A DNA stretch of 51,272 nucleotides from a virus: positions 1 through 51,272 of IMG/VR virus record IMGVR_UViG_3300027721_000022; one strand, written 5' to 3'. The number at the start of each line of letters is the position of its first letter. Within the stretch, counting starts at the first letter, position 1. Below, in pieces: positions 45,615 to 50,902 of this stretch. The notes under the pieces are model-generated. The model did not search any database and had not been told where the DNA came from. It saw only the letters and a program-made list of their open reading frames with translations. The position numbers and the translations under genes were made by a program.

Positions 45615-46079
45615 ATGAAATACAAGCCATACGCAGACTACCTCAAGTACTGGAGGGCAATAAAGACGCTAATTCGTCACAAGTACAACCTAAGCAGTTC
45701 CGACATAGACATCCTACTGTTCGTCTACAGCGAGCAGTACTTCCGTCACAGGCAGTTCTGGGAGTTCGAGTCTGGACTCACCTGGGAGAAGGACCGATTC
45801 AAGCGCATGATTGCCGACGGGTGGATCACGCTATGGAGGCCGAACAAGAACGGTGAGGCTGCCCTGTACGAGGCCTCCTACAAGACTCGCAGGGTTATAA
45901 CAGACATATACGAGAAGATCGAGCTCAAGGTTCACGTCTCAGAGAACCCAGTCTCTAACCCAATGTTCAGGACCGACGCGTCATATACCGAGAGAGCCAC
46001 CAGGCCCATTATTCGTAAGATGAATCGTACGCGTAAGGAGCTCAAGAGGCTCAGGGATATAGAAGATCAGAAGATCTAG
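45615..46079 (+). CDS. MarR-like winged-helix protein (regulator candidate)
   Basis: A 154-residue protein, the only rightward gene between 4554 and 50403. Residues about 10-90 suit a MarR-like winged helix (LKYWRAIKTLIRHKYNLSSSDIDILLFVYSEQYF, then FESGLTWEKDRFKRMIADGWITLW for the recognition helix and wing), followed by a helical region and a basic C terminus (IIRKMNRTRKELKRLRDIEDQ). It has its own promoter, divergent from the small basic genes, and could control that promoter. It ends convergently with the GroES gene (4-base overlap). AATCAAATG leader. Confidence 0.7.
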   Translation: MKYKPYADYLKYWRAIKTLIRHKYNLSSSDIDILLFVYSEQYFRHRQFWEFESGLTWEKDRFKRMIADGWITLWRPNKNGEAALYEASYKTRRVITDIYEKIELKVHVSENPVSNPMFRTDASYTERATRPIIRKMNRTRKELKRLRDIEDQKI

Positions 46080-46333
46080 AGGACAACCACGATGTCTCTC
46101 TCCATGATCACGGTGTACTTGATGTCGTTTACCAGCATCGTGTACCCAGCGTTCTTGTCGTAGTAGATTATGTCTCCCTCCTTCACGCAGTCCACGTTGG
46201 TTCCAGGCTTCACAACCTCTCCCTTCTTGTACCTGAACTGTTCTGTCTCGTTTCCAGTGAGCAGAAGACCCGACTGGGTCCTCATCTGCTCTTCTATTGT
46301 GTTGATTACTAGGTATTTATTTATTGGTTGCAT
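46076..46333 (-). CDS. GroES-like co-chaperonin
   Basis: An 85-residue protein of cpn10 type. The pattern is PINKYLVINTIEEQMRTQSGLLLTGNETEQFRYKKGEVVKPG, DCVKEGDIIYYDKNAGYTMLVNDIKYTVIMERDIV. The SGLLLTG segment fits the mobile loop that docks to GroEL, and EGDIIYYDK is the barrel strand. It is shorter than the usual 95-97 residues. It is separated from the GroEL gene by two small genes in the same operon, so the phage carries its own chaperonin pair, probably to fold its capsid or tail proteins. Confidence 0.85.
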   Translation of the reverse strand: MQPINKYLVINTIEEQMRTQSGLLLTGNETEQFRYKKGEVVKPGTNVDCVKEGDIIYYDKNAGYTMLVNDIKYTVIMERDIVVVL

Positions 46334-46613: not shown

Positions 46614-46954
46614 TATTGTTTTTGTATTAAATCTCCAATTCTATGCTGAAGAATATGTAAATATGAAATCATAGCGTTCCTTTGAGCATCTAATAATACC
46701 CATTGAATATCTCCTACAAATTCATACGCAGGATTGTTTTCAATAAAGTCGTCTATCTTACGTAATTTTTCAGATAATTCGTCGTCTTCTTGTTGTAACC
46801 TTTCAATAAGTGTTTTCCCTGTTATTGATTTAATAACTTCTCTTACTTTAGAAGCTCTCTCGTAATCTTTCATGACTACATATTTTGTTTTTAGATTTTC
46901 CAAAGACTCTAATGCCTCTTCTTCTTCTTTATAACCTCCTGTTGTTGCTTCCAT
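46613..46954 (-). CDS. Coiled-coil protein with UVR-like motif
   Basis: A 113-residue helical protein. Residues about 20-45 (KTKYVVMKDYERASKVREVIKSITG) resemble the UVR interaction motif. The following part (LIERLQQEDDELSEKLRKIDDFIENN to MISYLHILQHRIGDLI) is related to the 64-residue protein at 48562. The two lie on either side of the GroEL gene. This second module recurs as short proteins in phages of Bacteroidota. AT-rich compared with GroEL. Function unknown. Confidence 0.65.
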   Translation of the reverse strand: MEATTGGYKEEEEALESLENLKTKYVVMKDYERASKVREVIKSITGKTLIERLQQEDDELSEKLRKIDDFIENNPAYEFVGDIQWVLLDAQRNAMISYLHILQHRIGDLIQKQ

Positions 46955-48561
46955 TATGCTCGTGTCATTGTTATAATTGCGTTAGTACTAAGTATTGTTG
47001 TGGCCACACTGACAGCGTTCTTCAGCGCGTTCTTCGTAACCTTCAGCGGGTCTATGATCCCCATGTCGTACATGTTACCGTACTGGTCATTCTTGACGTC
47101 GTACCCCGTGTTGGTGTTTGATGCACATCCAGTCATGATCTCGTACCCGTCGTTGCCTGCGTTCTCGTGTATCTGCAGCAGAGGTGCCTGTATCGCCCTG
47201 GCCATGATCTGCATAGCTACGTACTGCTCTGCACTGATGTCCTCTATCATGTCATCAGCGTCTACAATGATCCTGTAAGACTCGTTGAACAAGGCTAAAC
47301 CTCCTCCTGGAAGGATTCCCTCCTCCAAAGCAGACCTGACAGCGCATACCGCGTCGTCTACCCTGTCCTTTCTCTCCTTCTGCTCCAGGTCCGAGTTCCC
47401 TCCAACGTATATAACAGCGATGCTACCCGTCAAGCTGGCAATCCTGTTCTTGATGAACTCCTTGTCCTGCTTCTTCTGCGCAGCCTCGTGAGCTACCCAA
47501 AGCTGGCTTACCCTGTCGTCTACGTCCTGCTGCTTGCTCTCTGGCTTGATGATGGATGATGAGTCCCTTCCTATAATGATCCTTTCTGCTCTACCTAAAT
47601 CCTCGATTGATATCAGGCTAAGGTCGTCCCCTGTGCTCTCCGAGAAGTACTTCGCACCCAAAGACAGCGCGATGTCGCTCATCAGCTCGTTCATCTTGTA
47701 ACCGAACTCTGGTGGTGCAATGTTACAGAACTTCAGCTTGTTCTTCACCACGTTGACTGCCAGTGTGTTGATCACGTTCTGGTTGCACGGCCCAATGATC
47801 AGTAGCTTCTTGTTCTCCTGTATCACCGTCTTCAACACGTTCTCAATCGACAGGATGTTGGAGATCTCCTGGTCTGTAACAAGTACCAGCACGTCGTCCA
47901 TGATGCACTCGTCGTTCTTGAAGTCGTTCACGAACATATTCGAGGTGTAACCCCTTCCGATCTTGATGCCATTGGTGAACTCTGAGTAGGTCTCAGCCGT
48001 CTGTGAGTTCTCAATCGTTACGATCCCATTCTTACCAACCTTAGTGTACGCATTAGAAATGATCTTACCTATCTCGTTATCGTTGTTAGCCGAGATGGAT
48101 GCCACGTTGTGAAGAGTCTTACCGCTAACCTTCTTGGATGATCTCTCCAGGCTGTGGATGATACCGTTAGAAACACTGTTGATGTTCTTGATTACCTCCG
48201 TCACGTTGTGCTTCTCGTTCAAGAGCTCCTGTCCCTGTCTCACGATGGCCTCCGTAAGCACGATAGCTGTCGTGGTTCCATCTCCAGCACTGGTGGCTGT
48301 CCTGTCTGCGGCTTCTTTCATCATCTTGACTGCCAGGTTCTCCACTGGGTCTAGCAAGAAGATTGACTTAGCAACCGTTACCCCATCCTTTGTAACTGTG
48401 ATACCATGAGTATGGTTCGGTGACTCGATTAGAACCGTACGACCCCTTGGTCCTAGCGTGCTCTTAACCGCCTTGGCAATTGTAGTTATGCCTGTAATTA
48501 GTTTTGATCTTCCTTCCTCGTCGAACAGTAGTTCCTTGGGACTGTATCCAAATTCTTCCAT
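46954..48561 (-). CDS. GroEL-like chaperonin
   Basis: A 535-residue protein with the full cpn60 layout: N-terminal equatorial part (AKAVKSTLGPRGRTVLIE, TKDGVTVAKSI), AADRTATSAGDGTTTAIVLTEAIV for the ATP site (GDGTT), an intermediate domain, an apical part (GIKIGRGYTSNMFVNDFKNDECIMDDVLVLV), the later Asp in RVDDAVCAVRSALEEGILPGGG, and YDMGIIDPLKVTKNALKNAVSVATTIL. The key ATPase residues are in place. It lacks a long GGM-type tail. Probably folds phage virion proteins together with the GroES-like protein. Rare in phages. GC-rich, like the virion genes. Confidence 0.92.
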   Translation of the reverse strand: MEEFGYSPKELLFDEEGRSKLITGITTIAKAVKSTLGPRGRTVLIESPNHTHGITVTKDGVTVAKSIFLLDPVENLAVKMMKEAADRTATSAGDGTTTAIVLTEAIVRQGQELLNEKHNVTEVIKNINSVSNGIIHSLERSSKKVSGKTLHNVASISANNDNEIGKIISNAYTKVGKNGIVTIENSQTAETYSEFTNGIKIGRGYTSNMFVNDFKNDECIMDDVLVLVTDQEISNILSIENVLKTVIQENKKLLIIGPCNQNVINTLAVNVVKNKLKFCNIAPPEFGYKMNELMSDIALSLGAKYFSESTGDDLSLISIEDLGRAERIIIGRDSSSIIKPESKQQDVDDRVSQLWVAHEAAQKKQDKEFIKNRIASLTGSIAVIYVGGNSDLEQKERKDRVDDAVCAVRSALEEGILPGGGLALFNESYRIIVDADDMIEDISAEQYVAMQIMARAIQAPLLQIHENAGNDGYEIMTGCASNTNTGYDVKNDQYGNMYDMGIIDPLKVTKNALKNAVSVATTILSTNAIITMTRA

Positions 48562-49302: not shown

Positions 49303-50184
49303 CAACAATTTTGTTTTAATAATAACGGGGTTAAAAAAATATGTCATAAAAATTTAAGCTCAGGGTTATATATTCAGATCACGTGAGCCGTCCAAAATGG
49401 AAACCGATTCTTTTTCGAGGGGTGGGGTACCAAAAAGCAGGATTTCCCTCCAGATTTCTAGGCTTTTCCTGGGGTGCCAGGTGGGTACCTCTTCAGACCA
49501 CACGTGAACCTGGTGGGTATCCCGCCACGTTGGTAGATGCTCCATGTCTCCCGTTATTTCGGTGTGTAAGCCATGACAATGTATGTAATGACTAAATAAA
49601 TGTAAGGAAATGTAAACCAAATGTAATGTATTTGGAACCGTTACATCGTGTGAGCCCACAGTATCACTACGATTACGTAGTATAATGTAGAAATGCGGGT
49701 TTATACCCTATATACAGCCTATATAAATATATATATATTATACTTTTTTTTTCGCTGTGAAGAAGGGAGTAAAGTTTACATTCTTACATTTTTTAGGCTT
49801 AGACCAATGATACCAAGGGCTAGCGCGATGTAAAGAAAAAAAAAACTTTACATTATTTTGGGCAACTTTACATTCTAGGGGCTTCCCGAGGTTTTCGTTA
49901 CATTTTGGTATGAATTAATGCATTCCTGGAGGGCATGTTAAACCCAGGGAACACCTACTGTGTTATGCATAGTACTATTTTGTGCTCAGATACCCTCACA
50001 CGAGCAATAAACCAAGTCCCCTCACGCGCGTGTACTTATATATAAAAAATCGCAATATCTCGTAACTCACACGTTATCAACAACTTAGTATATTTGTTAA
50101 AATTGTATAGCTTCTGAGCCCAATAAAAACGAGCCAAATGTTAAACTTTTGTTAATTAATTAGGATTGTAATTGATAGTTGTCG
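49303..50184. other. Noncoding divergent control region (origin candidate)
   Basis: About 880 bases between the leftward promoter at 49295 and the rightward one at 50185 contain no convincing gene. It holds a cluster of TTACAT/ATGTAA repeats (49583-49903), an AT-rich run around 49715-49750 (TATATAAATATATATATATT), a perfect 10-bp palindrome CACGCGCGTG at 50023-50032, and the CACGTGA sequence near 49380 and 49502. The layout suits a replication origin or a control region for the switch between the two transcription directions. Confidence 0.6.
49583..49903. repeat. TTACAT/ATGTAA iteron-like cluster, 11 copies
   Basis: ATGTAA occurs at 49583, 49600, 49610, 49621 and 49828, and its complement TTACAT at 49641, 49776, 49784, 49848, 49868 and 49898. 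Extended forms read ACTTTACATT (49845 and 49865) and AGTTTACATT (49773). One pair forms ATGTAAAG, ten A, CTTTACAT (49828-49853), an inverted repeat with a one-turn A-tract. The cluster could bind a replication initiator or a regulator. Confidence 0.75.
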
Positions 50185-50192
50185 TATGTTTG
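50185..50192 (+). promoter_or_regulatory. Early rightward promoter
   Basis: TATGTTTG matches TAnnTTTG on the plus strand, with TTG at 50166-50168 as a possible -33 element. No other such element was seen before the ribozyme at 50336, so this probably starts the early transcript. Confidence 0.65.
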
Positions 50193-50335
50193 CAGTGTTG
50201 AAAGGGTAGAAAATTTGTAAAGACTCTGGATGCAAGTCGACATGACTATAACTGCGGGTAAGTCTACTCTGGAATAAGCGATATAGATTTCGTGAAGTCC
50301 GAAGACCATGAGCTCCTCGAATAGAGACAGACATG
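50193..50335 (+). ncRNA. Leader RNA upstream of the first ribozyme
   Basis: About 140 bases of untranslated leader between the promoter and the type III hammerhead. It has no convincing open frame. A short direct repeat ACTCTGGA occurs at 50223 and 50266. If the ribozyme cleaves, this leader would be released as a free RNA of roughly 145 bases. Whether it folds or acts is unknown. Confidence 0.4.
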
Positions 50336-50389
50336 AAACGTATAAGGATGTGTATCCTTACTGATGAGCCACAGAATGGCGAAACGTTT
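50336..50389 (+). ncRNA. Hammerhead ribozyme, type III
   Basis: All elements fit. Stem III pairs AAACGU (50336-50341) with ACGUUU (50384-50389). The cleavage site is GUA with cutting after 50342. Stem I is UAAGGAU with AUCCUUA (50343-50349 and 50354-50360, loop GUGU). The core CUGAUGA is at 50361-50367. Stem II is GCCA with UGGC (50368-50371 and 50377-50380). GAAA is at 50381-50384. The open ends are in stem III, hence type III. It cleaves the early leader about 60 bases before the ATG at 50403. Activity is predicted from sequence, not shown. Confidence 0.92.
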
Positions 50390-50402
50390 AAATATATTTA
50401 AC

Positions 50403-50483
50403 ATGAAAGACATCTTATTTTGGACGATAGTACTAGTGCTATCAGTAACAATTCATTTACTAACTCCTAACTGCTACAGATAA
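50403..50483 (+). CDS. 26-residue single-span membrane microprotein
   Basis: An ORF starting ATG 50403, 14 bases after the ribozyme and directly after the leader TTAAATATATTTA plus two bases. The product KDILFWTIVLVLSVTIHLL with TPNCYR is one hydrophobic helix with charged and polar ends. It is the first of three tiny membrane proteins between two ribozymes. The shared leader at another gene (50729) supports translation here. Confidence 0.6.
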   Translation: MKDILFWTIVLVLSVTIHLLTPNCYR

Positions 50484-50484
50484 C

Positions 50485-50562
50485 ATGGGACAGAACCTAA
50501 AAGACATCGGACTTGCCCTAGTACTATGGGCAGTATTTATAACTTTAATATCTATTATATAA
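50485..50562 (+). CDS. 25-residue single-span membrane microprotein
   Basis: ATG 50485, one base after the previous stop, ends TAA 50560-50562. The product GQNLKDIGLALVLWAVFITLISII is a polar start and one hydrophobic helix. Its TAA overlaps the next ATG (TAATG). Translation probably depends on coupling to the first gene. No family recognised. Confidence 0.55.
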   Translation: MGQNLKDIGLALVLWAVFITLISII

Positions 50563-50660
50563 TGAAAGATTCAGACTTTATTTTATTAGTACTTGTAATA
50601 TACGGTGCTATATTTTTTGGTGGCTTACTAATAGCCTATATAAACGAGAAGTGGTACTAG
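50562..50660 (+). CDS. 32-residue single-span membrane microprotein
   Basis: ATG 50562 overlaps the preceding stop. The product KDSDFILLVLVIYGAIFF with GGLLIAYINEKWY is a membrane helix with a Gly-Gly in it and a polar C terminus. Its TAG (50658-50660) shares its last base with the first paired base of the type I ribozyme, so cleavage separates it from the genes downstream. Role unknown; membrane or signalling function possible. Confidence 0.6.
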   Translation: MKDSDFILLVLVIYGAIFFGGLLIAYINEKWY

Positions 50661-50712
50661 GTTAACTGACGAGTCCTGATTGGACGAAACACCCCTAGTG
50701 GGTGTATTAACC
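50660..50712 (+). ncRNA. Hammerhead ribozyme, type I
   Basis: All elements fit. Stem I pairs GGUUAA (50660-50665) with UUAACC (50707-50712). The core is CUGACGA (50666-50672). Stem II is GUCC with GGAC (50673-50676 and 50682-50685, loop UGAUU). GAAA is at 50686-50689. Stem III is CACCC with GGGUG (50690-50694 and 50700-50704, loop CUAGU). The cleavage site is GUA, cutting after 50706. The open ends are in stem I, hence type I. It lies between the third microprotein and the gene at 50729. Activity is predicted, not shown. Confidence 0.92.
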
Positions 50713-50728
50713 ATTAAATATATTTACT

Positions 50729-50902
50729 ATGAAAAAATCAATCTATCAGCACATCGCTGACACGTACAAGGACGAGGTTCCAACATTGGAACAAGTGACC
50801 TCCATTATTAAGGAGCATGCTCCAAACATATCGTCGCCGAGTTTAACCTTCGACGAATTAGTAACTAACATTTACGAAAACTATACACAATGGATAAAAT
50901 AG
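50729..50902 (+). CDS. Small hypothetical protein downstream of the type I ribozyme
   Basis: An ORF of 57 codons with ATG 50729. It is preceded by TTAAATATATTTA and two bases, identical to the leader of the gene at 50403. The product KKSIYQHIADTYKDEVPTLEQV, then SIIKEHAPNISSPSLTFDELVTNIYENYTQWIK is helical. It overlaps the next gene by 13 bases. Function unknown. Confidence 0.65.
   Translation: MKKSIYQHIADTYKDEVPTLEQVTSIIKEHAPNISSPSLTFDELVTNIYENYTQWIK

Follow-up and report, generated by a model that had tools for sequence, protein, structure and literature searches.

Type I and type III hammerhead motifs in a putative early operon of a probably Bacteroidota-infecting phage

The analyzed DNA was a virus record of 51,272 bases, the whole of which is referred to here as the window. 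Near its right end, a putative early promoter, a conserved leader region and five small open reading frames (ORFs A to E) lie on the same strand together with two hammerhead motifs of different topology. The features are as follows; L numbers denote related loci.

50185-50199, plus strand: TATGTTTGCAGTGTT, a Bacteroidota-type -7 element (TAnnTTTG), putative early promoter
50200-50335, plus strand: leader RNA conserved in relatives, predicted to be released by type III cleavage
50336-50389, plus strand: type III hammerhead, from RF00008, scanner and alignment; predicted cleavage after 50342
50403-50483, plus strand: ORF A, 26 aa (MKDILFW...), hydrophobic, putative transmembrane
50485-50562, plus strand: ORF B, 25 aa (MGQNLKD...), conserved in L002, L026, L126 and L128
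50562-50660, plus strand: ORF C, 32 aa, closed by a TAG whose G is shared with the type I hammerhead
50660-50712, plus strand: type I hammerhead, from direct reading of the sequence, scanner, covariance model and covariation in relatives
50660-50665/50707-50712, plus strand: stem I (GGUUAA/UUAACC), 6 bp
50666-50672, plus strand: core CUGACGA
50673-50676/50682-50685, plus strand: stem II, 4 bp
50686-50688, plus strand: GAA, followed by A15.1 at 50689
50690-50694/50700-50704, plus strand: stem III, 5 bp
50705-50706, plus strand: U16.1-A17 of the GUA site; predicted cleavage after 50706
50707-50728, plus strand: predicted 5'-OH leader (22 nt) on the downstream mRNA after processing (UUAACCAUUAAAUAUAUUUACU)
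50729-50902, plus strand: ORF D, 57 aa (MKKSIYQ...), without a PHROG match, conserved in L002, L026, L126 and L128
50890-51087, plus strand: ORF E, 65 aa (MDKIEQ...), conserved in L026 and L126

Elsewhere in the window, the minus strand encodes a phage GroEL (PHROG 5725; 46954-48561) and a GroES-like ORF of 85 aa (46076-46333), and GroEL and GroES are also annotated in Elemovirus. Additionally, eight TTACATT-type repeats (CTTTACATT, at most one mismatch, both strands) were found within approximately 300 bp of a divergent intergenic region (49599-49904), out of 31 across the whole window; these are possibly regulator or replication sites.

Direct reading of 50660-50712 gave GGUUAA-CUGACGA-GUCC(UGAUU)GGAC-GAA-A-CACCC(CUAGU)GGGUG-UA-UUAACC. 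The initial annotation had described a complete type I fold with perfect stems of 6, 4 and 5 bp, GAAA, CUGACGA and GUA, and both the direct reading and the scanner confirmed this description. The type I core pattern CUGANGA...GAA(A)...(U)H, in which H17 is not G, was present as CUGACGA, GAAA and GUA, and the scanner, the fold and covariation in relatives all pointed to three helices around this core with stem I open-ended. The fold was found to begin, as the annotation had stated, on the G of the TAG of the 32-residue gene. The start codon was also close behind its end, although the gap to the ATG at 50729 was 16 nt and not the 17 bases originally given. In a native context of 240 nt, the pairing probability of stem I in this copy was only about 0.2.

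A purpose-written scanner covering all three hammerhead topologies revealed exactly two strong candidates in the window, at 50660-50712 and 50336-50389 (scores of 15 and 16, respectively), plus one weak candidate. In 100 dinucleotide shuffles of the window, the scanner returned 0.04 hits each with a best score of 11, and over 20 loci it returned 61 real hits versus 1 in five times as much shuffled sequence. A covariance model built from relatives gave the window type I copy 71.5 bits (E 1.5e-14), a value that is partly circular because this copy is among the 39 building sequences. The Rfam search that had been proposed for the type I site did not call it: at the gathering cut-off, no hammerhead was called in the window, nor in 11 related loci that hold many copies. 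The best permissive match of the type I copy was RF03152 (RAGATH-1-hammerhead) with 20.5 bits and E 2.3, and thus Rfam used alone would miss it. The type III copy came closer, with 43.2 bits against RF00008 (Hammerhead_3; E 1.3e-7) and a gathering cut-off of 48.5, while the type I copy was far below its threshold. Both window copies have the same catalytic core as RF00008 and RF03152 and score below the curated cut-offs; the RF03152 model carries an extra 5' structure, unlike the window type I copy. The missing Rfam call is the one point in favor of a chance fold or a decayed relic, a reading that we regard as scarcely credible in view of the shuffle tests together with the covariation, position and recurrence described below.

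Upstream of the type III copy, a TTTGCAGTGTT box was located 122-188 nt before the hammerhead in the window and in all eight relatives examined, and the only perfect TANNTTTGCANTGTT copy in the window was the one at 50185-50199. We infer that 50185-50199 is an early promoter, and the position of the box ahead of the type III copy fits an early transcript that begins there. The leader at 50200-50335 was near-identical in L128 (7036-7172), in L126 and, for its 3' part, in L002 (6845-6955), and the motifs ACTCTGrAATAAGCG and CGTGAAGTyCGA were common to the window and Elemovirus (L003, 3330-3500). No Rfam match was obtained in the leader even at E<=10, and its stability was not unusual compared with shuffles (z 0.41). 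A loose pattern for the leader RNA was discarded, as it returned mostly chance matches; among newly fetched loci only two were real, both elemo-like. In the alignment of the type III hammerhead (A4, 12 rows), all paired positions were complementary (100%) and 13 of 17 pairs were changed on both sides, in rows picked by a scanner that demanded at least 3 bp per stem.

A search pattern consisting of the GUUAA/UUAAC stem I plus the core was found in at least 119 viral DNA stretches. The covariance model, built from 39 pattern-found stretches including the window copy, then matched 142 type I copies in 94 sources. In these matches, 98.5% of the cells were paired, 15 of 16 pairs were changed on both sides, and none of 500 shuffles was as good; stems II and III were free to vary, while stem I was mostly fixed and the core partly imposed by the search pattern. 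Fair evidence on stem I therefore comes from copies that the pattern did not select. Ten copies in one 32-kb record carried seven different complementary stem I sequences, stem I was GGUCUA/UAGAUC in L017 and L023, and further variants were present in Pelagibacter and Methylophilales phages. The fixed core bases were kept in the sampled relatives, whereas loops, stem sequences and neighboring genes varied. Relatives that keep the genes and lose the core bases, which would have counted against the ribozyme, were not seen in this sample, and both folds recurred in related phage contigs with covariation in the type I and type III alignments, as the annotation had suggested checking. Loop II was mostly UNNNU, and an unpaired A was conserved on both sides of stem I, features that bear on a possible loop II-stem I tertiary contact of the sort that makes cleavage fast. 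In particular, 134 of 139 copies had an A directly before stem I, as did 94 of the 95 without an abutting stop codon; conservation thus extends beyond the minimal core, and this A may have a tertiary role.

Several further occurrences were observed in these searches. One 82.8-kb phage record (L250; G030:C1:74000-82750) contained seven type I hammerheads; in the six that were read, each was followed by a repeated segment like AAAAGTCAGGTGCAGACTATAACAGGC in place of the usual AU-rich leader. The same model matched cultured Pelagibacter phages and the Methylophilales phage MEP301 (L251, 2655-2726; L252, 2994-3063; L253, 699-759). The Pelagibacter phage copies lie upstream of MarR and integrase genes, with ArdA also nearby in Jormungand. 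Type II scanner hits were found in Dulem virus 39 (L254). A prophage origin was considered and dropped: the GGUUAA pattern returned only three stretches from a species-level genome collection, all from MAGs.

Placement was counted over 139 type I copies, all distinct. In 122 of them, an ORF of at least 40 codons began with an ATG no more than 60 nt downstream, compared with 26% of random positions, and the distance to the ATG had a median of 16 nt with quartiles of 14-18. An AU-rich leader resembling 50707-50728 was also present in relatives. An upstream stop was found for 107 copies at a median distance of 3 nt; since stops within 120 nt are common at random positions too (70%), the short distance is the informative part. 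Records held up to 10 copies, each before an ORF, and the arrangement that defines clustered phage hammerheads, several of them flanking genes on the gene strand, was present. The upstream stop abutted or overlapped the first stem I base in 28 of the 139 copies and lay inside the hammerhead in 56. Such overlap would suit a role in which cleavage is coupled to upstream translation and mainly lowers or times the expression of flanking genes, and does not yield separate mRNAs. By inspection, ACUAGG at 50656-50661, which runs into the first bases of stem I, is complementary to CCUAGU at 50694-50699 in the stem III arm; this pairing is a possible inactive alternative fold of the window copy, which a terminating ribosome could block. 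We consider regulated cleavage of this kind unlikely, however, as the stop position varies, the L002 and L126 copies show no evident alternative pairing, and no aptamer-like domain was recognized.

The order of genes and ribozymes differed among related loci, as follows (X, genes not common with the window).

Window: type III, A, B, C, type I, D, E
L002: type III, X, type I, A, B, type I, D
L026: type III, X, type I, X, B, X, type I, X, D, E
L126: type III, X, type I, A, B, type I, X, D
L128: type III, X, A, B, type I, X, D

In L002 and L126, a type I hammerhead precedes the homologue of ORF A, and ORF C is absent from the L002, L126 and L128 maps. No ribozyme separates the first gene of L128 from gene A, so the one before gene A can be dispensed with. 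In L126, stem II of the second type I copy opens with an additional base, and this copy may be weak. As the terminases of the window, L128 and L026 records are 97-99% identical while their maps differ, the ribozymes persist amid changing neighbor genes. Where a hammerhead record had a terminase match, that protein was between 99% and 27% identical to the window version, which indicates that the trait is spread over diverse phages. The exchange of genes between persisting elements in phages with such similar terminases would also be expected if the elements worked as DNA, as short repeats promoting recombination and cassette exchange with cleavage incidental or absent. We hold this to be decidedly improbable: stems differ between copies in one genome with pairing kept, which DNA homology would not require, and the core is intact.

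Both loci also occur in cultured phages, as DNA homologous to the type III and the type I locus was found in 68 of 68 records of cultured Elemovirus, phages of a Flavobacterium host. Stem I of Elemovirus is GGCAAA/UUUGUC. In the four records that were read, stem II differed between near-identical records: one had GACU/AGUC and two had GGUU/AACC, which amounts to a double compensatory change, while elemoF 6-3D had GACU/AACC with two mismatches and an intact core; the fixed core bases were identical in all four. In the cultured Elemovirus genome that was searched, the long early region yielded just a single type I match. The Elemovirus ribozyme is overlapped by an antisense annotation ("hypothetical protein", approximately 35 aa) that is probably spurious.

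In 13 records, one of them the cultured phage MT497017, the same strand carried both type III and type I hammerheads. Type III came first in transcription in 11 of the 13 (the window, G001, G012, G032-G038 and the elemo phage), some of which are close relatives, so that the 11 are not independent events; the exceptions were G023 (III, III, I, III, III) and G039 (I, III, I, I). The view of the initial annotation that the second hammerhead has a different topology and is no simple duplicate of the first was supported. Its view that having both forms in one transcript is unusual was not supported, given these 13 records and the clusters of types I, II and III published in 2011 (PMC3088659).

Taken together, these sequence comparisons make it probable that 50660-50712 is a self-cleaving ribozyme and that it acts with the type III copy at 50336-50389 to process an early polycistronic transcript in a probably Bacteroidota-infecting phage, and we infer cleavage in the cell after 50342 and 50706. 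Self-cleavage would occur co-transcriptionally, splitting the transcript at the borders between genes. Cutting by the type III copy would free a leader of approximately 145 nt with a cyclic-phosphate end and leave an operon RNA that starts with the stem I hairpin bearing a 5'-OH. After the type I cut, the upstream gene RNA would retain nearly all of the ribozyme as a structured 3' terminus bearing a 2',3'-cyclic phosphate, and the downstream RNA would start with UUAACC within an AU-rich 5'-OH leader of approximately 22 nt. A likely benefit would be separate mRNAs with defined ends, into which new cassettes could be inserted without disturbing their neighbors; such ends may protect the mRNA or insulate the cassettes. 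More tentatively, the mixed array might be a modular expression system for exchangeable early genes, in which a type III copy gives the operon RNA a 5'-OH hairpin as its cap, type I copies end each cassette in a structured 3' terminus and provide the next with a short, fixed leader, and topology is set by operon position. Points against processing are the low stem I pairing probability, L128 lacking a ribozyme before gene A, the stem II mismatches of elemoF 6-3D and the single type I match in Elemovirus.

Tandem ribozymes leave a 5'-OH and a 2',3'-cyclic phosphate on the same fragment, and the gene-length RNAs released by two cuts could accordingly be ligated into circles, as in retrozymes. 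The ligases RtcB (PF01139) and PF09414 were absent from 24 hammerhead-bearing phage records, some of them fragmentary, although a host enzyme might take this role. Perreault et al. sought circular or spliced products and saw none (PMC3088659), and we regard circularization as very improbable here.

Processing by clustered hammerheads is of a kind already known. Perreault et al. (2011) described clustered type I, II and III hammerheads in prophages of Agrobacterium, Azorhizobium and Clostridium scindens, proposed that they divide long phage RNAs into shorter mRNAs, and reported in vivo cleavage by the triple array of A. tumefaciens (PMC3088659). HHphage of haloviruses HF1/HF2 lies 13 nt upstream of the start codon of an early gene, with a mapped 5' end no more than three nt from the predicted cut (PMC3088659). 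The window copies likewise precede putative early genes, whereas HHphage has an atypical core insertion and an archaeal host, with no array described (PMC3088659). As in the 2011 clusters, individual genes or short blocks of genes are bordered by several hammerheads (PMC3088659). Unlike those proteobacterial and clostridial prophages, the present phages are of lytic type with a cultured relative that infects Flavobacterium, and they have up to 10 copies per record, a type III-first order in 11 of 13 and a tight start-codon spacing of approximately 16 nt, differences that are drawn by description and not by alignment. No precedent closer than Perreault et al. 2011 (PMC3088659) was found in the open-licence literature. 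On the same descriptive comparison, what is new here is a phage lineage with a cultured representative, a class uncalled by Rfam, as many as 10 copies preceding one gene after another, a mostly type III-first order, and gene exchange between persisting ribozymes.

The job of bacterial and phage hammerheads in the cell is a long-standing question. The class is abundant in viral contigs, although Rfam called it in no locus tested, and because every cultured Elemovirus record holds both loci, processing is directly testable in an existing Flavobacterium phage-host pair.
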